Below, piece after piece: positions 5,962 to 34,548 of a DNA stretch of 64,000 nucleotides; positions within the stretch are counted from its first letter, which is position 1; each line of letters opens with the position of its first letter. The notes beneath the pieces are model-generated. The model ran no database searches. It saw only the letters and a list, made by a program, of their open reading frames with translations, and had not been told where the DNA came from. A program made the translations under genes and the position numbers. Origin of the DNA: Methylophilus sp. 13 (GTDB lineage Bacteria; Pseudomonadota; Gammaproteobacteria; Burkholderiales; Methylophilaceae); assembly GCF_015354335.1 (NCBI RefSeq), contig NZ_JADKYR010000006.1:1-64000 (forward strand), written 5' to 3'.

Positions 5962-7029
5962 CTAGAAACGTAGCGGCCAGACCCGCAGCCGTTGCTTGAG
6001 GGTTTGCCAGACCTTGGCCAAGCCATGGGGCTCTTTGATCAGGAAAAAGATGATCAAGGCGCCAAAAATCATTTTCTGAAAATTCTCCAGCTGGCCAGGA
6101 TCAATCGCTCCGGCCAACAGGCTGCTGGTCAGGTTGGAAAGCAAAATGGGGAACAGCACAATAAAAGCCGCGCCCAGAAAGTTGCCGAGGATACTACCCA
6201 TACCGCCGATGATAATAATGAACAGAATCTGGAAGGAGCGTGACAAATCAAAGCCATGTGGTTCGACGGTGCCCAGGTAAGTGAATGCCCACAGCGCACC
6301 GGCAATCCCCAGGTAAAACGAGCTGATGGCAAAGGCCAGTAATTTGGTTTTTGGCACAGAGATCCCGATCACGGCGGCAGCGGTATCCATGTCGCGTACC
6401 GCCATCCACTTGCGTCCGAGCTCACCACTGACAATGGTTTTTGCCAGCCACCCCAGCGCCACGACGACGGTTAAGGTCAGCAGGTAGCGGCCCGCCGGTG
6501 TACTCAAATCCGTGCCTAATATCTGCAAGGGCGGCGCTGTAATGACGCCAGAAGAGGAGTTGTTGGAAAACCAGGAGAATGTGGTGAACACCCATTGCAC
6601 AAAAAACTGTGCAGCCAGTGTTGCCACAATCAGGTAAAAGCCCTTGATGCGCAAACTCGGCAGCCCAAACACCAGGCCGACGCCACCTGCCGTCAACCCG
6701 CCCAATATCAGGCTGGCAATCAATGGCAAGCCCTCTATCCTCAGGTGAAAGTTGTAGGTGGCAAACGCGCCTACCGCCATAAAGGCCGCAGAGCCCAAGG
6801 AGAGCTGGCCCGCATACCCGGTGAGCAAATTCAAGCCCAGCCCGGCTAGCGACAGCACTAGCACCGGGATGAGGATGGCGCTAAACCAGTAATCATTGCC
6901 AATGGCGGGGACCACCAGAAAGGCAAATGCCAGTAAGGCCGCAAACGCCCAGCGCTCCTGCTTGAGCCGGAAAAACCGTTTATCCAGCCTATACTCGGTA
7001 ATAAATTGTCCTGTTTCTTGATACCACAT
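5962..7029 (-). CDS. ABC transporter permease, LivM-type
   Basis: 355 residues with about ten hydrophobic segments. The family hallmark LLTGYAGQLSLGSAAFMAVGA lies near residue 70, and the EAA-like cytoplasmic loop (RDMDTAAAVIGISVPKTKLLAFAISSFYLGIAGAL) near residue 215. It has an N-terminal cytoplasmic extension (about 28 residues, charged). It pairs with the LivH-type permease 25 bp upstream in the same operon to form the membrane channel. Confidence 0.92.
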   Translation of the reverse strand: MWYQETGQFITEYRLDKRFFRLKQERWAFAALLAFAFLVVPAIGNDYWFSAILIPVLVLSLAGLGLNLLTGYAGQLSLGSAAFMAVGAFATYNFHLRIEGLPLIASLILGGLTAGGVGLVFGLPSLRIKGFYLIVATLAAQFFVQWVFTTFSWFSNNSSSGVITAPPLQILGTDLSTPAGRYLLTLTVVVALGWLAKTIVSGELGRKWMAVRDMDTAAAVIGISVPKTKLLAFAISSFYLGIAGALWAFTYLGTVEPHGFDLSRSFQILFIIIIGGMGSILGNFLGAAFIVLFPILLSNLTSSLLAGAIDPGQLENFQKMIFGALIIFFLIKEPHGLAKVWQTLKQRLRVWPLRF

Positions 7030-19415: not shown

Positions 19416-20636
19416 CTATGAGTAAAAGCTAGGGGTAGGATACTGCCCATTCAGCGCCCACTCGCCTAACTCCTTGAATTTGTAATCCACCGGGTCATGC
19501 AAGGTATACACACGCAAATTCCGCCAGAAACGGTCCATGCGCAGCTTGGCTGTGGTCGCACGGGCGCCTGCCACCTCAAAAATACGCGTGGTCACATCCA
19601 GCCCGGCACGGGTCGCCTGCACTTTGGCCGAAAACACCGCCAGCGCCACTTCTCCGCGTTGTGCGTCATCGAGTGACAGTCCTTGCTGCCAGGCCGCATC
19701 GAGCAATTCGGCAGCATGGTCGGCCAGCACCGATGATGCATGTAATCCTGCCCAAAACTCGCCGTAATGCAGCAAGGTATAAGGATCCTCATACACGCTG
19801 TTTGCCAACGAAGCAGACCAGACCCGGCTGCTGCCACGGGTATATTTGGCACCCTCGGCCAGCGCCCCTTCGGCAATACCCAGGTAGATATTGGTAAAGA
19901 TCAGCTGGGCCACCAACGAACGCAGACTGGCAAACGACGAACTGAGCGGGCCAGGCTGCATGAGTAACTCATGATCTTCCACCTTGAGCTGGTTAAATTC
20001 TGCACTGCCACTGTCGGTCTGGCGCTGGCCGATGTTGTCCCAGTCGCCCTTGAGCGTAATCCCTGCGCGACTGGTCGGCACCGCAGCCACCAGAAATTTG
20101 CCGCTGCCTTCTTCTATGGCAGACACGATCAGGAAGTCAGAATCCATGGAGCCGGAGCAAAAACTTTTTTGCCCGTGAAACACATAGCCACCGTCTACCT
20201 TACGTGCCACCGTACGCTGGTCTAGCGGATTGAGGGCATTGCCCCACCACAGGTTCTGGTGCGCAGTGAGCTTGAAATAATGCTGCCACTGCGTCTCGCT
20301 GCCATATAAACGGATAGACGCCAGCATCAAAAACTGGAACGCAAACACCTGTGCAATCGAACTGTCGACGCGGGCAATCTGGCGGATGATGCGGTAGGTC
20401 TGCGCCCAGCTGGCGCCCAAGCCCCCGGCCTGTTGCGGTAGCCACAAACTGAGCAAGCCGCTGTCCCTTACCGCCTGCCGCTGCGGATAGGGCGTCCCTC
20501 CTGCGACATCGCGTTCAACCGCGGTGAGTGCCAGATAGTCGCAAAGTTGATCGGCGCGCTGTTGCGGTGTGCCGTGAAACAAAATGCCATGCTCCGCTTC
20601 AGCGGCGGGCGGGCGTAAATTCAGAGCCAATGTCAT
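19416..20636 (-). CDS. msuC: FMNH2-dependent methanesulfinate monooxygenase, MsuC-like
   Basis: 406 residues, acyl-CoA dehydrogenase fold without the catalytic Glu context of true dehydrogenases. Motifs: LSLWLPQQAGGLGASWAQTYRIIRQIA, GYVFHGQKSFCSGSMDSDFLIVSA, TTAKLRMDRFWRNLRVYTLHDPVDYK at the C-terminus, the pattern shared by MsuC, SfnB and DszC. MsuC oxidises methanesulfinate to methanesulfonate. Placed 8 bp after msuD in the same operon. Distinguished from SfnB by sequence and by this pairing; the substrate is by analogy. Confidence 0.82.
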   Translation of the reverse strand: MTLALNLRPPAAEAEHGILFHGTPQQRADQLCDYLALTAVERDVAGGTPYPQRQAVRDSGLLSLWLPQQAGGLGASWAQTYRIIRQIARVDSSIAQVFAFQFLMLASIRLYGSETQWQHYFKLTAHQNLWWGNALNPLDQRTVARKVDGGYVFHGQKSFCSGSMDSDFLIVSAIEEGSGKFLVAAVPTSRAGITLKGDWDNIGQRQTDSGSAEFNQLKVEDHELLMQPGPLSSSFASLRSLVAQLIFTNIYLGIAEGALAEGAKYTRGSSRVWSASLANSVYEDPYTLLHYGEFWAGLHASSVLADHAAELLDAAWQQGLSLDDAQRGEVALAVFSAKVQATRAGLDVTTRIFEVAGARATTAKLRMDRFWRNLRVYTLHDPVDYKFKELGEWALNGQYPTPSFYS

Positions 20637-20644
20637 CTTCCCCC

Positions 20645-21778
20645 CTACGCAGCATGCTTAACAGATTGGGCTGCGCCAAACGGGCCGGTGAGATTGGTCG
20701 TAATGCTAACCTCATGTGGGGCCTGTTGCTGGAGCGGCAAAAGCGGGAACAATAATTCAGCGACACGGTAAGCCTCCTCCAGATGTGGGTAGCCTGAGAA
20801 AATAAAATAATCAATGCCCAGCGCCTGATACTCTTTAATGCGGTCAGCCACTTCTTGCGGATTGCCCACCAGCGCAGTGCCGGCACCACCGCGCACCAGG
20901 CCGACTCCAGCCCACAGATTAGGCGAGACTTCGAGCTGGTCACGACGGCCATGATGCAAAGCCGTCATGCGTTTTTGTGCCACAGAATCAAAATTGGCCA
21001 CTGCGGCCTGTGCTGCTGCGATCGTGTCATCGGTGACCTGCGAAATCAGCGTGTCGGCGGCCTGCCAGGCTTGCTCGCTGGTCTCACGCACAATCACATG
21101 CAAGCGGATACCAAACCGGATATGGCGGCCTTTGGCTGCCGCCGCCGCGCGGATCACCTTGATTTTTTCGGCCACCGCTGCGGGCGGTTCACCCCAGGTT
21201 AAATGCACATCAATATGCTCACTGCTGAGTTTGATGGCGGCCTCGGAAGCGCCGCCGATAAACAGTGGCGGATAAGGTTTCTGCAAGCTACCGGTTGGCA
21301 GGCTGGCGCCTTTGACGCGTAAATAATCGCCTTCAAAATCCACGCGCTGCTCGCTCAGTACCGAGCGCCAGATAGACAAGAACTCCTCAGCCTCCGCATA
21401 CCGCGCATCATGATCGAGAAAGCTACCCTCGGCTTGCTGTTCGGCCGGATCACCGCCCGCCACCACATTAATCAGCAGCCGCCCGCCCGAGATACGGTCC
21501 AGCGTCGAGGCCATGCGCGCTGACACCACCGGTGAAATAAACCCAGGCCGTGTGGCGACTAAAAACTTGAGCTGGCTGGTTTCATTGATCAGTGCCGAAG
21601 AAATGACCCAGGCATCTTCGCAAGAGCGGCCAGACGGCACCAGCACACCGCCATAGCCCAGCCGGTCAGCCGCCTGGGCAATCTGTTTCAGATAAGAAAA
21701 CGTGGCCGGTCTGGCGCCCTGGCTGCTGCCAAGATACCGTTGATCGCCATGCGTGGGTAAAAACCAGAATATTTGCAT
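20645..21778 (-). CDS. msuD: FMNH2-dependent alkanesulfonate monooxygenase (MsuD/SsuD)
   Basis: 377-residue luciferase-like enzyme. Cleaves the C-S bond of methanesulfonate or other alkanesulfonates to sulfite and an aldehyde. Family motifs: [69 protein letters not shown], and [20 protein letters not shown]. First gene of the operon msuD-msuC-amidohydrolase-ribB, 46 bp downstream of a sigma54 promoter. The neighbours (msuC, sfnG, msuE) favour MsuD over SsuD, though specificity cannot be read from sequence. Confidence 0.92.
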
Positions 21779-21824
21779 CGACTACCCTTTACAACCCATT
21801 CAAAAGAAATAACAGCTTGAAAAG

Positions 21825-21840
21825 TGCAAAGTCCATGCCA
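21825..21840 (-). promoter_or_regulatory. Sigma54 promoter of the msuD operon
   Basis: Minus-strand TGGCATGGACTTTGCA with exact GG-N10-GC spacing, 46 bp before the msuD start. Confidence 0.8.
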
Positions 21841-21888
21841 CAAATAAAAGACTTTTAATTCAATCACTTAAAAAAATTATTTTTTTGA

Positions 21889-21906
21889 TTGCTGCAAAAT
21901 CAGCAA
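21889..21906. promoter_or_regulatory. Palindrome upstream of msuD
   Basis: TTGCTG-CAAAAT-CAGCAA, perfect 6-base arms, about 50 bp upstream of the -24/-12 element. Confidence 0.55.
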
Positions 21907-21921
21907 CTTGTTCAGCAGTGC

Positions 21922-21937
21922 TGCTGCGTTTGCAGCA
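21922..21937. promoter_or_regulatory. Palindromic enhancer site beside msuD (same form as at 11786)
   Basis: TGCTGC-GTTT-GCAGCA, perfect arms and 4-base centre, the same half-sites and spacing as the site between msuE and sfnB. An overlapping CAGCAG-TG-CTGCTG lies immediately left. Together these suggest a common sigma54 activator, most simply the adjacent SfnR. Confidence 0.65.
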
Positions 21938-22099
21938 CCCTGCATCGATTTCAGCAGGCGGATGTAGAGCAGTGCCATTTGCATACCTCACGCAGCAATA
22001 AGCAACCACAAGTCCTCCTTTTCTTAACCCCATGATTTGATGGCATTTATTGTTTTAACCCGTCATCTCATGCCTGCGGTAGCACGACCTCGGCCTGAT

Positions 22100-22115
22100 T
22101 GGCATGCATTCTGCT
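22100..22115 (+). promoter_or_regulatory. Possible sigma54 promoter of sfnR-ribA
   Basis: TGGCATGCATTCTGCT, exact GG-N10-GC spacing, 153 bp upstream of the preferred sfnR start. The long leader makes it less certain than the other three. Confidence 0.45.
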
Positions 22116-22268
22116 AATTCAGACGGGTAATTAAATCATTATTTCTAATTAGAGATTTATTTATAACTTTAAAGAATATGAATAGCGCCATTACTTATTG
22201 GCACGAAATTGCAGCCTGGATTACTGTATCTGGGCTTAACTCTATGGAAAGACAGTGAGATCCTCACG

Positions 22269-23384
22269 ATGGCAAATCTATTAGCAAACGATTTTTATAC
22301 GACTGAACACGACACGCAGTTTGAGCAACAGCGTCTGTTAACCATGCCGAACTCGCGGGCCATGTCGACATCGATTCGAGCGACCGCGCAGGTGTTTGAA
22401 GATCCGAAGTCGATCGCCTTGCTTAATCGCATCAAGCAAATTGCCCCCAGTGACGCCAATGTCTTGATCATCGGCGAAACTGGCACGGGCAAGGAGCTGA
22501 TTGCCCGCCATGTGCATGCCTTGAGCTACCGTAAATCTAAACCATTTGTCGCGGTGAATTGCGGGGCGTTCTCGGAAACCCTGGTCGAAAGTGAATTGTT
22601 CGGCCATGAAAAAGGCGCGTTTACCGGGGCGGTCACTGCCAAAGCCGGCTGGTTTGAAGAGGCCAATGGCGGCACGCTGTTTCTGGATGAGATTGGTGAT
22701 TTGCCGCTGAGTCTCCAGGTGAAGCTGTTACGTGTACTACAAGAGCGGGAAGTGGTACGGCTAGGCGCGCGCAAACCAACCCCGATTGATGTGCGGCTGA
22801 TTGCAGCGACCAATGTACGCCTGGAAGAGGCCGTGCTGGCTGGTAACTTCAGGGAGGATTTATTCTACCGTTTACGCGTTGCGCACCTGGAGCTGCCAAC
22901 CCTGCGCAACCGGCCCGGCGATATTTTGCCACTGGCAGATTATTTTGTTGGCGAATATACACGGCGGTTGGGCTACGCCACCATCCGCCTCGATGACTCG
23001 GCCAAGCAAAAATTACTGCAGCATAGTTGGCCAGGGAATATCCGCGAACTCGAAAATGTAATTCATCACTCCTTGCTGATTTGCCGCAACAATGTGGTGC
23101 GCAGTGAGGATTTACATTTGTCCTCGATCTCGCTACACCGACCCAAAGCGACACTGCAGGCCTTGCCCAGCGAAGCAGATACTGACTCGCTGGAGGCGTC
23201 GCTGCAGCAGTTGTTTGAAACGGGCAAAGCGCAGCTTTATGACTATGTGGAAGACACGCTGGTACGTGCCGCCTATCAGCATTGCCACCATAATCAGGTG
23301 CAAACCGCCAAGCTGCTGGGCTTGAGCCGCAATGTGTTGCGCGCCAAGCTGATTAAAATGGGAGCGATCAATGCGCTTAAATAA
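22269..23384 (+). CDS. sfnR: Sigma54-dependent activator, SfnR-like
   Basis: 371 residues from ATG 22269. After a short N-terminal segment (~40 aa) with no receiver or sensor domain comes an AAA+ domain: Walker A GETGTGKE, the sigma54-contact loop GAFTGA, Walker [12 protein letters not shown], arginine-finger region. A Fis-type helix-turn-helix follows at the C-terminus ([24 protein letters not shown]). Lack of an input domain is characteristic of SfnR, whose activity is set by its synthesis. Probably activates the -24/-12 promoters at 11.7, 11.95 and 21.8 kb. A TTG at 22209 would add 20 residues. Its end overlaps ribA by 14 bases. Confidence 0.88.
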
Positions 23385-24018
23385 GCTTGCCTCTTTGCAA
23401 ACAGCGGCCATCGAAAGCGGCAGCCTGCGCTGGAAAGCCAGTGCTCACTTACCGACAGAATATGGGCAGTACCGTTTACACGCGTTTGTTGATATGCACA
23501 GCGGGCAGGAGCAGATCGCACTGGTGCTCGGAAAGGTCAGCGGTCAAGCCAGAGTGCTGACCCGCGTGCACTCTGAATGCCTGACCGGGGATGTATTTGG
23601 CTCACAGCGCTGCGATTGCGGCGAACAGTTCAAACGCTCGCAGCAACTGATTCAGGCGCGTGGCAATGGCATTATTCTGTATCTGCGCGGACATGAAGGG
23701 CGCGGCATCGGCATCAGCAACAAGGTGCAGGCCTATGATTTGCAAGACACCGGCTTGGATACGGTGGCGGCAAACCTCGCCCTGGGCCTGCCTGTAGACC
23801 AGCGAGCATATGATGATGCCGCCAGTATGTTGCAGCATTTTGAGGTGAAGTCGATTGAGTTACTGAGTAACAACCCGGATAAGTCGCGCGCCCTCACCCG
23901 GCTGGGCATCATGGTGGAGGCCGTGACGCCGTTAGAGATCGCAAGTAATCCAGCCAATGCCGACTATCTGGCGACCAAAAAGCACAGACTGGGGCATCAC
24001 CTGAGTTTGGTGCCTTAG
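23371..24018 (+). CDS. ribA: GTP cyclohydrolase II
   Basis: 215 residues. Opens GTP to the first riboflavin intermediate. Motifs: [21 protein letters not shown] (zinc Cys cluster), [12 protein letters not shown], and the catalytic [11 protein letters not shown]. Stand-alone RibA, not fused to RibB. The ATG lies inside the last codons of sfnR behind GGGAG, so translation is probably coupled to the regulator. This places flavin synthesis in the sulfur regulon together with ribB 5 kb away. Confidence 0.94.
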
Positions 24019-24748: not shown

Positions 24749-26158
24749 TCAGAACAGGCCCGAGGTTGAATGCGCAACTGGCGAAAGCAGCGGCGAAGGC
24801 AATTGTTCAAAGGCCTGTACAGTTAAAGGTTTGCTAAAAAAATATCCCTGGTATTTCATACAGCCCTTGCTATGCAGGTATTCGAGCTGCTCTATCGTTT
24901 CCACCCCCTCAGCAATCAGGGTCATTTTGAGATGCTTACCCAGATTCACCAGCGTATCGACAATCGCCTGGTCACTTTCATTATTCAGCAAGTCGCGCAC
25001 AAAGGATTGATCAATTTTTAATTGCTCAAATGGCAGGTGCTTCAAGTAGTTTAATGAAGAGTATCCGGTGCCAAAATCATCCAGCGACCAACTCATGCCA
25101 AATGCCTGCAATGCGCGCATTTTCTGGATCGTATCGTCTACTTCGTTTGCCAGCATGCTCTCTGTGAGCTCCAGTTTAATCTGGCCGGGATTGGCGCCGC
25201 TGCGCGTGACAATCTCCTGCACCTCTTGCACAAAATCGGGCTGGCGCAGCTGCGAAGTGCTCACATTCACCGCAACACTCAAGTGGGACAAATGCGGATG
25301 ATCAGACCATTTCACCAACTGCGCACAGGCTTCTTTTAATACCCAATTACCAATCGGCAAAATCAGGCCGGTTTCTTCCGCGGCAGTGATGAAAACACCA
25401 GGCGGGATCAAGCCCCGTTCAGGATGCTGCCAGCGTAGCAACGCTTCAGCGCCAAAAATATGACCCTGGGCATCGACCTGCGGCTGGTAATGCAAACAGA
25501 AATGCCCTTTGGCGAGCGCTTCGCGCATATCCGCGTAAAGCCCGCTACGCAAGGTAATATCAGACTGCATCACAATCAAGGCAATCCCCAAAACACCTAA
25601 GGCGGCCAGATTATTCATCCATGCCCCAACCGCCCGAATTTCAGGATTCGCAATCAAAGATGCCTGGGTAATGCCAATGTCAGACGAACCAAAAATCAAA
25701 CACCCCAACAGCATGAGCAACGGAAAAATCACGCGCAGATAAATGCCCTCTTTACGGAACACCAGCGATGATCCTGCGGCAATCGGCAGATAGTACATAT
25801 GCACCGAGCGGACCACCCCGGGCAACGGCACATCAAACACAGAAATCGCAGAAATAATCAGCGCCAAGCCATGCGCCATAAAAATGGCTGCCAGGCGATC
25901 CCGGCCCGCATTGATCATGGTCACCACAAGCATGCTCAATATCACCAGGGAAAAGTTAAAGGCCATTAACAGCCATTTGGCCTGCCATAAATAGTAAATA
26001 CTCCAAGCACCGCCCAGAATAATTGAGGCACAGGCAGCAATCGCCAGTAACAGTTTCACCCGCAATTGATGCGGGTCTTGGGCAAACTGAAAAAGCTCGC
26101 CTTTAAAAAGTTTGGCAACCAGTCTCAGTTGTAGAGGAGTGTTTTTAAAGTGTGGCAT
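24749..26158 (-). CDS. Membrane-anchored EAL c-di-GMP phosphodiesterase
   Basis: 469 residues. Residues ~35-200 form about six membrane helices with short loops. Residues ~210-455 form an EAL domain with the catalytic set: EALLRW, NVSTSQLRQPDF, ELTESML, DDFGTGYSSLNYLK, KIDQSFV and AEGVET. There is no GGDEF domain. It should hydrolyse c-di-GMP to pGpG at the inner membrane. A c-di-GMP-I riboswitch lies about 215 bp upstream on the same strand (26375-26466), suggesting feedback control of the turnover enzyme by its own substrate. Weak ribosome site, which fits control of initiation. Confidence 0.9.
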   Translation of the reverse strand: MPHFKNTPLQLRLVAKLFKGELFQFAQDPHQLRVKLLLAIAACASIILGGAWSIYYLWQAKWLLMAFNFSLVILSMLVVTMINAGRDRLAAIFMAHGLALIISAISVFDVPLPGVVRSVHMYYLPIAAGSSLVFRKEGIYLRVIFPLLMLLGCLIFGSSDIGITQASLIANPEIRAVGAWMNNLAALGVLGIALIVMQSDITLRSGLYADMREALAKGHFCLHYQPQVDAQGHIFGAEALLRWQHPERGLIPPGVFITAAEETGLILPIGNWVLKEACAQLVKWSDHPHLSHLSVAVNVSTSQLRQPDFVQEVQEIVTRSGANPGQIKLELTESMLANEVDDTIQKMRALQAFGMSWSLDDFGTGYSSLNYLKHLPFEQLKIDQSFVRDLLNNESDQAIVDTLVNLGKHLKMTLIAEGVETIEQLEYLHSKGCMKYQGYFFSKPLTVQAFEQLPSPLLSPVAHSTSGLF

Positions 26159-26374
26159 TAGGCGCGCCTGTCATCCAATTGACCATTGCCAATCCACCAC
26201 AAACGACTGCGACAGCGCAGTGCAAGCAAGTCATTTCTCTTTAGTAAGTGGTCGATCATAAAGCCCTCAGCGGCGGATACCCTCAATGGGCGAAACAGCA
26301 CTCAGGCTTTGCCGAGACGGCATAAGCCCAGCCCACACAACACACTACTTGAAAGAACTTGATACATTAACCCT

Positions 26375-26466
26375 TGCGGTAAATGGTAGCCCCGCTGTCA
26401 TCAGCAACTGCTTTTAGACCGGAAGCTTTGCGTCCCTGCTTTTCAGCAGGTTTGCCTTTTATAATG
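26375..26466 (-). ncRNA. c-di-GMP-I (GEMM) riboswitch
   Basis: Read on the minus strand: GGCAAACC, stem CCTGCT-GAAA-AGCAGG with a GNRA tetraloop, then GGGACGCAAAGC, TTCCGG, CTAA, and after a variable stem AGCGGGGCTACC. These are the conserved blocks of the Vibrio Vc2 aptamer, in order, including the tetraloop and the GGACGCAAAGC core. No obvious U-tract terminator follows, but GGCTTATGCCG / CGGCAAAGCC forms a strong hairpin at 26307-26331. Downstream gene is the EAL phosphodiesterase. Confidence 0.9.
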
Positions 26467-26644
26467 GTACTTAACAATAGGTGACAAGTTCATCAAACTT
26501 TGTAACGGTTGTCAATCCTCTCGACATTCAATACTGTATGTTTGTCATTAAAAAACCGCACACACATTTTTCTCAGCAACAATCCTGCCTTTTATCTCTG
26601 GCAAAAGGCGCTATTGGCAATCCACTGATGGATAGATTTCACTG
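26467..26644 (-). promoter_or_regulatory. Leader upstream of the riboswitch, with a TTGACA -35
   Basis: A perfect TTGACA is seen on the minus strand (26510-26515); 17 bp later the -10 would be TGAACT, which is weak. Otherwise no gene or terminator is seen between the cytochrome gene stop and the aptamer. Confidence 0.35.
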
Positions 26645-31292: not shown

Positions 31293-32660
31293 TCACAACC
31301 CCATTCTATTAAGCTGACTGTCCAACCGATAATCAATCGGCACAACCCCATAAGCCTCTTGTTCAGGAGGACTGAAGCACCATCTCTTCACGATTCTCAA
31401 AGACTCATTATCTAACCGTTCAAATCCGCTAGTCTTTTGAATTTCTGCACTGACAACTGCACCATTGGTACCCACTAAAAACTTTACTTCCGCTCGCCCC
31501 TCTTCTCCGAGCTCGCGAGATTCCTTAGGGTAAACAGGATTTTCCCTCTTGTCTGTTCCATTGCAAATTACTGGCATCTCGCTTAAAACAACCTCCTTTT
31601 GCATATTGGCTCGTTCAGATAATTCATGTGAAATGTAACCTGCTCCCTGGAAAAACATGACCACTAAAAAGGTATAAATAAAGTATCTGAACTGATAGAT
31701 AAATTTATTTTGTTTGGTAAGCAGATTTAAAAGAGGCCAAACAAACGTGCGGAAGGCAAGAGTAGCGAAAAACGCCCCGCCGGCTAATACAAATGAAATA
31801 GCATCTACCTTAACAGCAGAACTTATTAGCAATAGAAAACCAGCAGCAAGAGACGAGAAAATCATATCCTCTCTGGTAATAGGAAACTTTGATTCTGATG
31901 GTGACTTATAGTAACTTTTTAGCAAAGGAACATTGAGCTCATCACAAGTTATTTGCCATCTTTTTCGCGCAAGCAGATCCGACTTCGACAATAAGAAAAC
32001 AGGTAATCGAGTCTTTGTTTGCGCAAGATTTATGTTTTTCTGAGTGATTGCGGCTTGATAGTCGTCAGCAAGCTTTCTGAATCCTTCCAACCAGACTATC
32101 TCATTCTCTTGAAACTCCCGCAACGAGAATGCACGGCTGGTTGTCCAAGAGTAATAATTATCTAATGTAATAAATGTTAATAGCAGTGGATGATTAAAAG
32201 TGAAAATCCAGTTTAATATCTCAAGTTCGATTGCAGAGGATTCATCTAAAGAGTGAAACTGTAACTGATCTAGAAACCTCTGAGTCAATTGCTTTGCTGC
32301 CTGCTCATCACCTCTTCCAGCCAAATCAGTCAATTTAATCAAATACTTAAAAACCGGTAACTTTTCTTCATGTGAATGCGCTTTATCTGGCGCATCATCA
32401 GGATGCGACAATAGTGAATCTTCATTGTTTAGTGTCTGATTGGTAAATTGATCGGCCTCTAACGGATGGACATTTTTTTGCTCATGGTTCAAACGAAAAG
32501 TCTCATATTGGGCGAGAGCAATTTCGTACGCCTGTCTTATATTGCCGAATTCGACAGGATGCGTATCGGGACGAAAATGCTTAATCTGCTTGGCGTAAGC
32601 TTGCTTAATCTGCCTGATATCAGCATCACTCTCTATTCCTAATATTTGGTAAATATTCAT
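31293..32660 (-). CDS. J-like domain / membrane / TonB-C domain protein
   Basis: 455 residues from ATG 32660 (TAGGA upstream). Residues 1-~60 form a J-like domain (YQILGIESDADIRQIKQAYA...FGNIRQAYEIAL), but the HPD motif is RPD (HFRPDTHP), so stimulation of Hsp70 by the standard mechanism is doubtful. A middle soluble helical region of about 200 residues follows, then several membrane helices (~275-365: SLAAGFLLLISSAV, ISFVLAGGAFFATLAF, YFIYTFLVVMFFQGAGY). The last ~85 residues are a TonB C-terminal domain (NPVYPKESRELGEEGRAEVKFLVGTNGAVV...SGFERLDNESLRIVKRWCFSPP). It lies seven bases after hscC. Function unknown; a chaperone-linked envelope protein is inference. Confidence 0.82.
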   Translation of the reverse strand: MNIYQILGIESDADIRQIKQAYAKQIKHFRPDTHPVEFGNIRQAYEIALAQYETFRLNHEQKNVHPLEADQFTNQTLNNEDSLLSHPDDAPDKAHSHEEKLPVFKYLIKLTDLAGRGDEQAAKQLTQRFLDQLQFHSLDESSAIELEILNWIFTFNHPLLLTFITLDNYYSWTTSRAFSLREFQENEIVWLEGFRKLADDYQAAITQKNINLAQTKTRLPVFLLSKSDLLARKRWQITCDELNVPLLKSYYKSPSESKFPITREDMIFSSLAAGFLLLISSAVKVDAISFVLAGGAFFATLAFRTFVWPLLNLLTKQNKFIYQFRYFIYTFLVVMFFQGAGYISHELSERANMQKEVVLSEMPVICNGTDKRENPVYPKESRELGEEGRAEVKFLVGTNGAVVSAEIQKTSGFERLDNESLRIVKRWCFSPPEQEAYGVVPIDYRLDSQLNRMGL

Positions 32661-32667
32661 GATGGTC

Positions 32668-34368
32668 CTACCAAATTCCTTCACTTTCCAATGAGTTCAA
32701 AGCCATATTAAAAGCATCTCTTGCTTTTTTTATTTCCAAGAGATCTTGCTTTTCCAGCACTGAAATAAATTGAGTCAGCACCAAACGAACAGTGTTACGG
32801 CGCTCACCAAGGGACTGCTCATACAGTCGCTCCGCTCGTTCTACAAGGTAGCGATTTTCTTCTTGATCTCTGGGGTGAATTTTCAAAGCAGCCAACACTT
32901 TACGACGCTCCTCAAGCTCTTCTGGATCAACATGAGCGCCCAATTTGCTAATGATGAGACTTTTGTGAATGTTCGCTTTCTCAACATCAACATCCACCTC
33001 AAGCATTCCATTGATATCATATGTAAATCTTATGTCAGCCGAAATCTCACCTTTAGGCTTGGATGGAATATCTATTTCAATAGTGTCAAGTAAGACGTTT
33101 TTGCTACAGTCACGAGACTCCCCTTGAAAAACACGAATACTTAGCTGAGTCTGCCCGTCATGCGCAGTAAGGACAGATTGAACGCGACTGGCCGGTACGA
33201 CAATATTACGTTCAATAATGGGTAAAAACGTTAACCCCACCGGATTGTTCTGATAGTCATAATCAATGACTTCCGTCCCTAAAGTGTGAGGGCAAACATC
33301 AGTCAAAACAACTTCATCAAATACAATATTCCGGTCAATCAGTCCGGCACAGACTGCAGCCCCTAAAGCTATCGTTTGGTCAGGATCAATATACCTCGCA
33401 GGCAGGCGTCCAAACAATTGAGTCACCAACTTTCGAATGATCGCCATTCGCGTTGCACCACCTACCATCACCAACTCATCCAAATCACTCACGCGCAACC
33501 TTGCATCACGCAGAGCTCTCTCAATCGGAGTTCTCAATCGATCTAATAACCCTTTGCATGCTGCCTCGTACTCATCCAAATGTATCAATGCTGACTTCTG
33601 CACACCGTCTATAATCACGTCCAAAGTAATCTGTGGCTGTTCACTAAAACTACGTTTAGCATTTTCTGCAACAAATCGTATGGCGGATAGAGTGGATGGA
33701 TTTTGTTTTTGTGCATAACTCAGAGAGGCTTTTTCAGCAAATAAGCTCACTAGAACTTGAGTAAAATCATCTCCGCCTAAAAAGCTATCTCCTCCGGTAG
33801 CTCGAACCTCCATAATTCCATCAAATTTTTCGAGAATTGAGACGTCAAAAGTACCTCCTCCCAAATCAAAAATTAAAAACTTGGCTGCAGCCTCATAATC
33901 CTGAATGCCATGAAAAAGCGCAGCAGCAGTAGGCTCATTGATAAGTCGAAGTACATTTAAACCTGCCAATTGCCCTGCTAGCTTTGTTGCTTTTCGCTGG
34001 TTATCATTAAAATAAGCTGGTACTGAAATTACTACATCTTTAACTTCCACTCCAAGATAAGCTTCAGCATCTGATTTTAAGGCACGTAAGACCAGCGCGG
34101 ATAAGTCTTCTGGCTTGTATTCCCTTGCACCCAATTTTATTGATTGTTTGGTTCCCATGAGGCGTTTAAATGAATGTGCAGTCAAATTGGGAAATTTATA
34201 TAGTCTCTCACGAGCAGCGGCACCAATAAAAACAGTCCCAGTATCATCGACGCCTACAACTGAAGGTGTTAAAACTTTTCCCATAGCATTAGGAATCGCT
34301 TCTGGCTTTCCATCTTTCAAGTAACAAATGAGGCTGTTAGTAGTACCTAAATCAATCCCAAAAATCAT
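32668..34368 (-). CDS. hscC: Hsp70-family chaperone, HscC-like
   Basis: 566 residues starting MIFGIDLGTTNSLICYLKDG; the ATG at 34368 is chosen because the ATPase domain begins there, although the frame is open 66 bases further. Nucleotide-binding motifs: DLGTTNS, VISVPAYFNDNQRKATKLAGQLAGLNVLRLINEPTAAA-type (seen as VPAYFNDNQRKAT and INEPTAAAL), FDLGGGTFDVSIL, MVGGATRM. The substrate-binding domain is present but shorter than DnaK (about 640 aa), as in HscC (about 556 aa). A+T-rich compared with neighbours. Operon with the J-like protein gene. Confidence 0.9.
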   Translation of the reverse strand: MIFGIDLGTTNSLICYLKDGKPEAIPNAMGKVLTPSVVGVDDTGTVFIGAAARERLYKFPNLTAHSFKRLMGTKQSIKLGAREYKPEDLSALVLRALKSDAEAYLGVEVKDVVISVPAYFNDNQRKATKLAGQLAGLNVLRLINEPTAAALFHGIQDYEAAAKFLIFDLGGGTFDVSILEKFDGIMEVRATGGDSFLGGDDFTQVLVSLFAEKASLSYAQKQNPSTLSAIRFVAENAKRSFSEQPQITLDVIIDGVQKSALIHLDEYEAACKGLLDRLRTPIERALRDARLRVSDLDELVMVGGATRMAIIRKLVTQLFGRLPARYIDPDQTIALGAAVCAGLIDRNIVFDEVVLTDVCPHTLGTEVIDYDYQNNPVGLTFLPIIERNIVVPASRVQSVLTAHDGQTQLSIRVFQGESRDCSKNVLLDTIEIDIPSKPKGEISADIRFTYDINGMLEVDVDVEKANIHKSLIISKLGAHVDPEELEERRKVLAALKIHPRDQEENRYLVERAERLYEQSLGERRNTVRLVLTQFISVLEKQDLLEIKKARDAFNMALNSLESEGIW

Positions 34369-34548
34369 AATCGCGAACCTTAAACCAATTGTTGGTGACT
34401 CTCTAATATACGTTGATGCCCTTGCAATCAACACACTCTAAAATTCAGACTTTGCCAAAATAGATTGCTATTCAATAAGACTCTCATACTTTGCCAACAC
34501 CCTAAATCCTATTCTAGCCATCCAGTTTGTACTTTTTATATTTGTTAT

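Follow-up and report, generated by a model that had tools for sequence, protein, structure and literature searches.

Sequence comparison confirms that a genuine class I c-di-GMP riboswitch (c-di-GMP-I, RF01051), a known kind of switch, precedes an EAL-only phosphodiesterase-type gene in the window, the whole 64,000-nt stretch analysed here (NZ_JADKYR010000006.1, positions 1 to 64,000). The riboswitch of this stretch is called the window copy below. A short hairpin right after the aptamer, H1, is the conserved candidate switching element, and not the hairpin at 26307-26331. We infer that the RNA binds its ligand, that the response is in the ON direction and that H1 acts as the switch; together these would make an ON switch giving negative feedback, a reading to which a probability of roughly 0.55 is assigned. 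The features concerned are the following.

26487..26515, minus strand: promoter-like element, TTGACA (26515-26510), 17 nt and TGAACT (26492-26487), with the same element before relatives' aptamers
26382..26466, minus strand: c-di-GMP-I riboswitch aptamer (RF01051), a full-model match with compensatory changes in relatives
26365..26385, minus strand: H1 hairpin CATTTACCGCAAGGGTTAATG, candidate switching element, 5′ arm beginning at aptamer C93
26302..26367, minus strand: leader ORF of 21 codons, ATG in the H1 3′ arm, TGA stop
26305..26328, minus strand: strong hairpin GGCTTATGCCGTCTCGGCAAAGCC, then TGAGTGCTGTTTCG; -15.0 kcal/mol for the stretch 26331-26303
26158..26259, minus strand: upstream ORF of 33 codons with GAGGG before it, stop TAA overlapping the EAL ATG (TAATG)
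24749..26158, minus strand: EAL-only membrane protein (469 aa) with five hydrophobic segments between residues 36 and 197 and an EAL domain at 210-444

Aptamer, promoter and EAL gene

The RF01051 match found by cmscan runs from 26466 to 26382 on the minus strand, covers model positions 1-87 of 87 and scores 83.9 bits (E 4.4e-15) against a gathering score of 35. It is the sole gathering-level RNA match in the window. No second RF01051 match was found in the window's own genome (99.99% complete, 14 contigs searched), and 14 control genomes gave 0 matches. The alignment contains P2 with its GNRA tetraloop, P3 and the conserved joining strand, and 0 non-standard pairs were flagged; GGACGCAAAGC, the P3 strands and, on P2, a GAAA loop can all be read. 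When six related sites are compared, pairing holds in 97.7% of cells, with two-sided changes at five of 29 pairs, all five inside the aptamer. The ligand contacts in Vc2, which we take to be G20, A47 and C92, map to G 26455, A 26428 and C 26386, and the letters at these positions were checked. A G at the G20 position presumably favours c-di-GMP, while an A would be of the cGAMP type.

The promoter-like element recurs in the same form, TTGACA-17-TGAACT, upstream of the aptamer in three species that belong to another genus (G174, G175 and G176), and TTGAC[ATC] lies within 75 nt upstream at 38 of 69 family sites, with 4.0 expected from mononucleotide shuffles. It is therefore most likely that the riboswitch has its own promoter and stands first in its transcript, with a start expected about 14 nt before the aptamer. 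TGAACT agrees with the consensus at three of six positions and lacks the A at position 2, and the promoter scan did not report TTGACA-17-TGAACT.

The EAL gene is the next ORF on the same strand, and its ATG lies 223 nt 3′ of the aptamer end. A single Pfam domain, PF00563 (EAL), is matched at residues 210-444 (4.2e-74), and no GGDEF domain was matched in the 469-aa protein. The motifs EALLRW, NVSTSQL, ELTES, DDFGTG, KIDQSF, AEGVE and QGYFFSKP are present and align with those of the best solved relative, the MorA EAL domain (4rni, 2.9e-64); the assignment of catalytic residues among them is our assumption. The protein likely hydrolyses c-di-GMP, as judged from these motifs. Its upstream neighbour is a cytochrome c gene, itself behind genes for a molybdopterin-binding subunit and a 2Fe-2S subunit.

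An earlier note on this DNA, made from the letters alone, had named a c-di-GMP riboswitch with a clear aptamer core and GAAA tetraloop in front of an EAL-only membrane phosphodiesterase, and had proposed an RF01051 covariance-model search as a check. The search returned the clear full-length match given above, the core and tetraloop are there, and the EAL-only membrane assignment holds, with its five hydrophobic segments and no GGDEF match. The note had the right site, but its interval of 26375-26466 runs 7 nt past the 3′ end of the match at 26382, and its 200-base leader measures 223 nt from aptamer end to ATG.

Elsewhere in the window, two minus-strand ORFs (31293-32684 and 32668-34434) comprise a protein with an N-terminal DnaJ domain (PF00226) and a C-terminal TonB domain (PF03544), and an HSP70-like gene upstream of it. 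DnaJ-TonB is an unusual domain pair, and the ORF as called overlaps the end of the HSP70-like gene. In a sulfur-acquisition-like cluster at 19416-24018, an alkanesulfonate monooxygenase passes its cut-off and a DszC/SfnB-like oxidoreductase does not; a sigma-54 activator lies on the opposite strand, followed by GTP cyclohydrolase II.

H1 and the remainder of the leader

H1 alone folds with -4.6 kcal/mol. Its sequence, with up to three mismatches, occurs in five of 187 family genomes (four species, two of the five genomes belonging to the window species) and always at the riboswitch; diverged variants are found in G127 and G059. The H1 pairs hold in 95.7% of cells with no two-sided covariation, so that the hairpin is supported by conservation and not by covariation. 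In G175 and G176 H1 grows to CGCCG...CGGCG followed by TTTTTC (-12.0 kcal/mol) and covers both C92 and C93, while the tract after H1 in G174 is poorer. The window H1 takes in C93 only and has neither the basal GC stem nor a U-tract, which agrees with the earlier note's remark that the copy has no textbook terminator. A terminator with the ligand-pairing C in its hairpin and a U-tract behind it, as in pilM (discussed below), is thus found in G175 and G176 and not in the window. In folding runs the window H1 coexists with P2 and P3, and a forced proximal P1, which excludes H1, costs 5.0-10.9 kcal/mol.

Terminator-like hairpins were also surveyed across the family. A strict scan marked four of 69 sites, one of them overlapping the aptamer; it missed G175 and G176 and was run with no control. 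The U-tract rule was relaxed once, after this miss, and the enrichment that follows is accordingly post hoc. The relaxed scan marked 17 of 69 sites, 10 with hairpins overlapping the aptamer 3′ strand and seven with non-overlapping ones. When the downstream sequence alone was shuffled, two controls of 20 shuffles each gave 6.0 sites in all with 2.0 overlapping, and 8.6 with 3.1 (maxima of 5 and 6 overlapping, against 10 observed); with the last 10 nt of the aptamer shuffled as well, five shuffles gave 6.0 in all and 1.0 overlapping. Some of the 10 overlapping sites come from related genomes, and the window copy is not among them. The seven non-overlapping hairpins are near chance across the family; in the window leader the relaxed scan marks one such candidate at +90..+119 (-9.5 kcal/mol). 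Over 94 sites, hairpin excess is greatest right after the aptamer (mean z -0.90, compared with -0.28, -0.30 and -0.03 further downstream); these are the 69 family sites and 25 of 28 order loci with a script-placed aptamer end, visibly misplaced in at least L181 and L182. The survey gives a post hoc hint that aptamer-overlapping terminators are enriched in the family.

The promoter, aptamer and H1 can be aligned to their counterparts in the other genus; the remaining leader cannot. The hairpin that the earlier note had singled out at 26307-26331 is indeed strong (-15.0 kcal/mol). It was seen in the two genomes of the window species only: the same bases at 26328-26305 are found in G002, the second genome of the species, and do not align in the other genera. 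The TGAGTGCTGTTTCG after it does not seem to be a proper U-tract. A loose consensus terminator scan yielded three sites in 801 bases, with 1.0 expected, and two of these are minus-strand terminator-like sites in the leader, at 26316-26301 and 26221-26206. The former is a 5-pair stem with the tail TGCTGTTTCG that overlaps the strong hairpin. The full-leader fold has a z of -1.00, and an equal or better fold is reached by 12 of 100 shuffles.

A distal closing helix, or elaborated P1, was considered as well. MFE folds pair the aptamer 5′ strand with post-H1 sequence in the window, G174, G175 and G176. This candidate was rejected: duplex p values are 0.59 in the window, 0.04, 0.08 and 0.07 in G174, G175 and G176, 0.02 in G127 and 1.0 in G059, the pairings differ, and two of 69 sites have p <= 0.05.

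Direction of the switch

In the preferred reading, a stand-alone promoter just upstream would start a transcript whose first ~100 nt form the class I aptamer. At high c-di-GMP, binding would lock the aptamer 3′ strand (C92, C93) and thereby block the competing hairpin that starts there, H1, which is terminator-like in two relatives. With H1 blocked, the EAL phosphodiesterase would be made and c-di-GMP lowered. The ON direction is suggested by the relatives, since H1 in G175 and G176 is terminator-like and covers the ligand-binding strand, as in pilM. The aptamer-overlapping hairpins of the family survey and the hairpin excess right after the aptamer fit the same logic. In the window copy, where H1 has no basal GC stem and no U-tract, switching may be weak, Rho-dependent or translational. 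Several results count against the ON reading: the window copy is not one of the 10 overlapping sites, H1 shows no two-sided covariation and coexists with P2 and P3 in the folds, the aptamer 3′ strand of the window pairs with downstream sequence no better than chance, the leader offers other terminator-like candidates, and no riboswitch was found in 20 of 22 genus genomes, two of which carry an EAL ortholog.

Known systems provide partial parallels. Vc2 and Cd1 (c-di-GMP-I, also GEMM-I) match the window copy in aptamer sequence, in secondary structure and in the contact residues assumed above; the window copy differs in its target, an EAL-only membrane phosphodiesterase-type gene, and in having no textbook platform. 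According to PMC9262584, the GEMM-type ON switch of pilM in Geobacter metallireducens has a terminator that sequesters C75, thus using the aptamer's own 3′ strand; the same logic is suggested here for G175 and G176. pilM senses cGAMP, whereas the window copy has a G at the mapped G20 and is without the terminator's basal stem and U-tract. A precedent for the window leader is Vc1, before gbpA of Vibrio cholerae: PMC4744006 describes a class I riboswitch with a leader of 225-244 nt and reduced expression at lowered c-di-GMP, for which the authors report no apparent terminator or anti-SD. It thus combines a long leader and an ON response with no visible platform, although gbpA encodes no c-di-GMP enzyme.

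The opposite direction is rather unlikely. As an OFF switch, the RNA would let c-di-GMP lower phosphodiesterase expression, a positive feedback that sharpens or locks a high c-di-GMP state. Class I OFF switches are documented, with Cd1 as the case given in PMC9262584, and the window leader has no H1-type terminator while its other hairpins, two of them consensus-marked, could serve as an OFF platform. These hairpins have poor T-tracts, however, and across the family their non-overlapping kind is near chance. Anti-aptamer pairing, measured between the aptamer 3′ strand and the 110 nt that follow, does not exceed chance in the window either (p 0.64); across the family such long-range pairing reaches p <= 0.05 at eight of 69 sites, with about 3.5 expected. 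The ON-type overlap also argues for the ON direction, being present in G175 and G176, and so in two of the three nearest relatives beyond the species.

Control through translation or Rho is improbable as a reading of its own. Here the ligand would open H1, whose 3′ arm holds AAGGG and the ATG, allowing translation of the leader ORF and, through coupling (the TAATG overlap) or protection from Rho, expression of the EAL gene. Several observations would suit it: the ATG lies in the H1 3′ arm at all six aligned sites, no clear SD stands right before the EAL ATG, and in G002 the frame runs for 69 codons and its stop overlaps the EAL start as TAATG. From aptamer to EAL ATG (311 nt) the window and G002 differ in one base, and that base makes the TGA ending the window frame after 21 codons. 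The frame is not kept between genera, however, with 17, 30, 45, 29 and 18 codons in G174, G175, G176, G127 and G059, and G127 and G059 lack the SD-like bases. Pairing with the H1 5′ arm also explains the conserved ATG. The 33-codon ORF occurs in both genomes of the species and is absent from G174 and G175, and leader coupling is therefore kept as a minor reading. A combined history, in which an ancestral terminator-type ON switch turned translational in the window species, has the slimmest chance of the readings given here; H1 would then hide the leader-ORF start, and c-di-GMP would open H1 so that ribosomes reach TAATG.

It is very doubtful that the window copy is a relic, an aptamer that still matches the family and no longer controls the gene because its platform has decayed. 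The window species has no H1 basal stem or U-tract, and the EAL orthologs of G009 and G021 manage without a riboswitch. With 83.9 bits the aptamer nevertheless ranks near the top of the 69 family sites, the contact residues assumed above are present, and it is precisely the promoter, aptamer and H1 that can be aligned to the other genus.

Relatives, family targets and significance

Within the genus RF01051 is found in two of 22 genomes, both of the window species; four of the 22 are less than 90% complete. Small-genome genera in the family and two hexulose-phosphate synthase matches above cut-off point to Methylophilaceae, although two of 14 control genomes pass that cut-off as well. G009 and G021, also of the genus, have EAL orthologs 70.7% and 69.0% identical to the window protein, without a riboswitch and in other neighbourhoods; no c-di-GMP family match marks a riboswitch remnant there, and the two upstream regions resemble each other. 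In the other genus, two species (G174 and G175) have the riboswitch together with an EAL ortholog (66.8% and 71.7% identical), and the cassette of TTGACA-17-TGAACT, aptamer, H1 at C93 and EAL gene recurs in a neighbourhood that differs from the window's. The adjoining gene there, recognised by its sequence, we take to be groEL. G176 carries the same promoter-aptamer-H1 cassette (L154 aptamer, 6827-6911, minus strand) before a two-partner-secretion transporter gene (ShlB), and the cassette target thus differs within one genus; a search with the N-terminal 216 residues found only a 28% identical paralog in G176. The four genus proteins cluster together in the protein tree (97/99), which carries a caution about long outgroup branches. 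One old riboswitch-EAL association, later lost in G009 and G021, fits this pattern, and gain or transfer of the association is possible.

In the order, an extended model (R1) matches 140 of 399 genomes at E <= 1e-6 with strict filters. No H1 sequence was seen at the 28 order loci outside the family that were selected from these matches (L160-L187), of which L160 and L162 have other hairpins right after the aptamer. The 22-base H1 core has no exact match in viral contigs, and no similar leader was found in phage records.

Across the family, 69 sites occur in 39 of 187 genomes, 68 above cut-off and L137 just below. The target of each was taken mechanically as the longest ORF starting within 480 nt. 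With 11 near-duplicates set aside, 50 of the 58 others were scanned against Pfam, where 12 had no family at 1e-5; the window protein was scanned separately, L007 and L010 were assigned by identity, and L005, L024, L027, L103 and L103b were left out. EAL-only targets account for four of 69 sites, two of them of the same species, and DUF3391-HD proteins, which we take to be of HD-GYP type, for seven (L003, L009, L016, L101, L106, L109, L116). Proteins of these two types follow 11 of 69 sites; phosphodiesterase-type genes are a recurrent but minority target in the family. The DUF3391-HD genes place the same sensor class before a phosphodiesterase-type gene with an unrelated enzyme domain, and the H1 sequence was not found at these sites. 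Other targets are GGDEF-EAL (one), GGDEF (one, cut by the locus end), EAL-HDOD (two) and HDOD alone (one), and further targets include MotA, protoglobin kinases and secreted-type proteins.

A protoglobin-PAS histidine kinase often follows the aptamer, mainly within a single genus (L020-L023, L025-L027, L113, L119, L127), and was identified by scanning in L020, L113, L119 and L127 and by likeness to L020 in the others. G177 has 13 c-di-GMP-I matches (L004, L101-L105, L108, L110, L112, L118-L120); the other 186 family genomes have at most four, and 148 have none. In the aptamers L122, L123, L124 and L133, GCC or GCT replaces the usual GGC, and GACGGAAAG or GACAGAAAG replaces GACGCAAAG, possibly as an aptamer variant. 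The L122 target is a long ORF with a TPS secretion domain, those of L123 and L124 are alike, and the long ORF after L133 gave no Pfam match.

Early GEMM papers reportedly list GGDEF and EAL genes among the targets. Among the papers listed by a literature search, none dealt with c-di-GMP riboswitches of Methylophilus or Methylotenera. In the available part of PMC12530212, seven c-di-GMP riboswitches are named for the methylotroph strain GP59, none of them before a phosphodiesterase. The accessible portions of PMC9286219, PMC6200980, PMC6366702 and PMC11477304 likewise contain no c-di-GMP riboswitch before a c-di-GMP phosphodiesterase.

The known picture of the riboswitch class is unchanged by these results. 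If the switch had turned translational in the window species, c-di-GMP feedback would be stronger in some strains of that species than in others, the 69-codon ORF in one being cut by a one-base stop in the other. If the preferred ON reading is true, the organism would have a clean loop of one sensor and one enzyme, in which the single c-di-GMP-I match found in the genome precedes a phosphodiesterase-type gene. Related species keep, lack or retarget the cassette, which makes it well suited to studying whether c-di-GMP is stabilised by riboswitch feedback.
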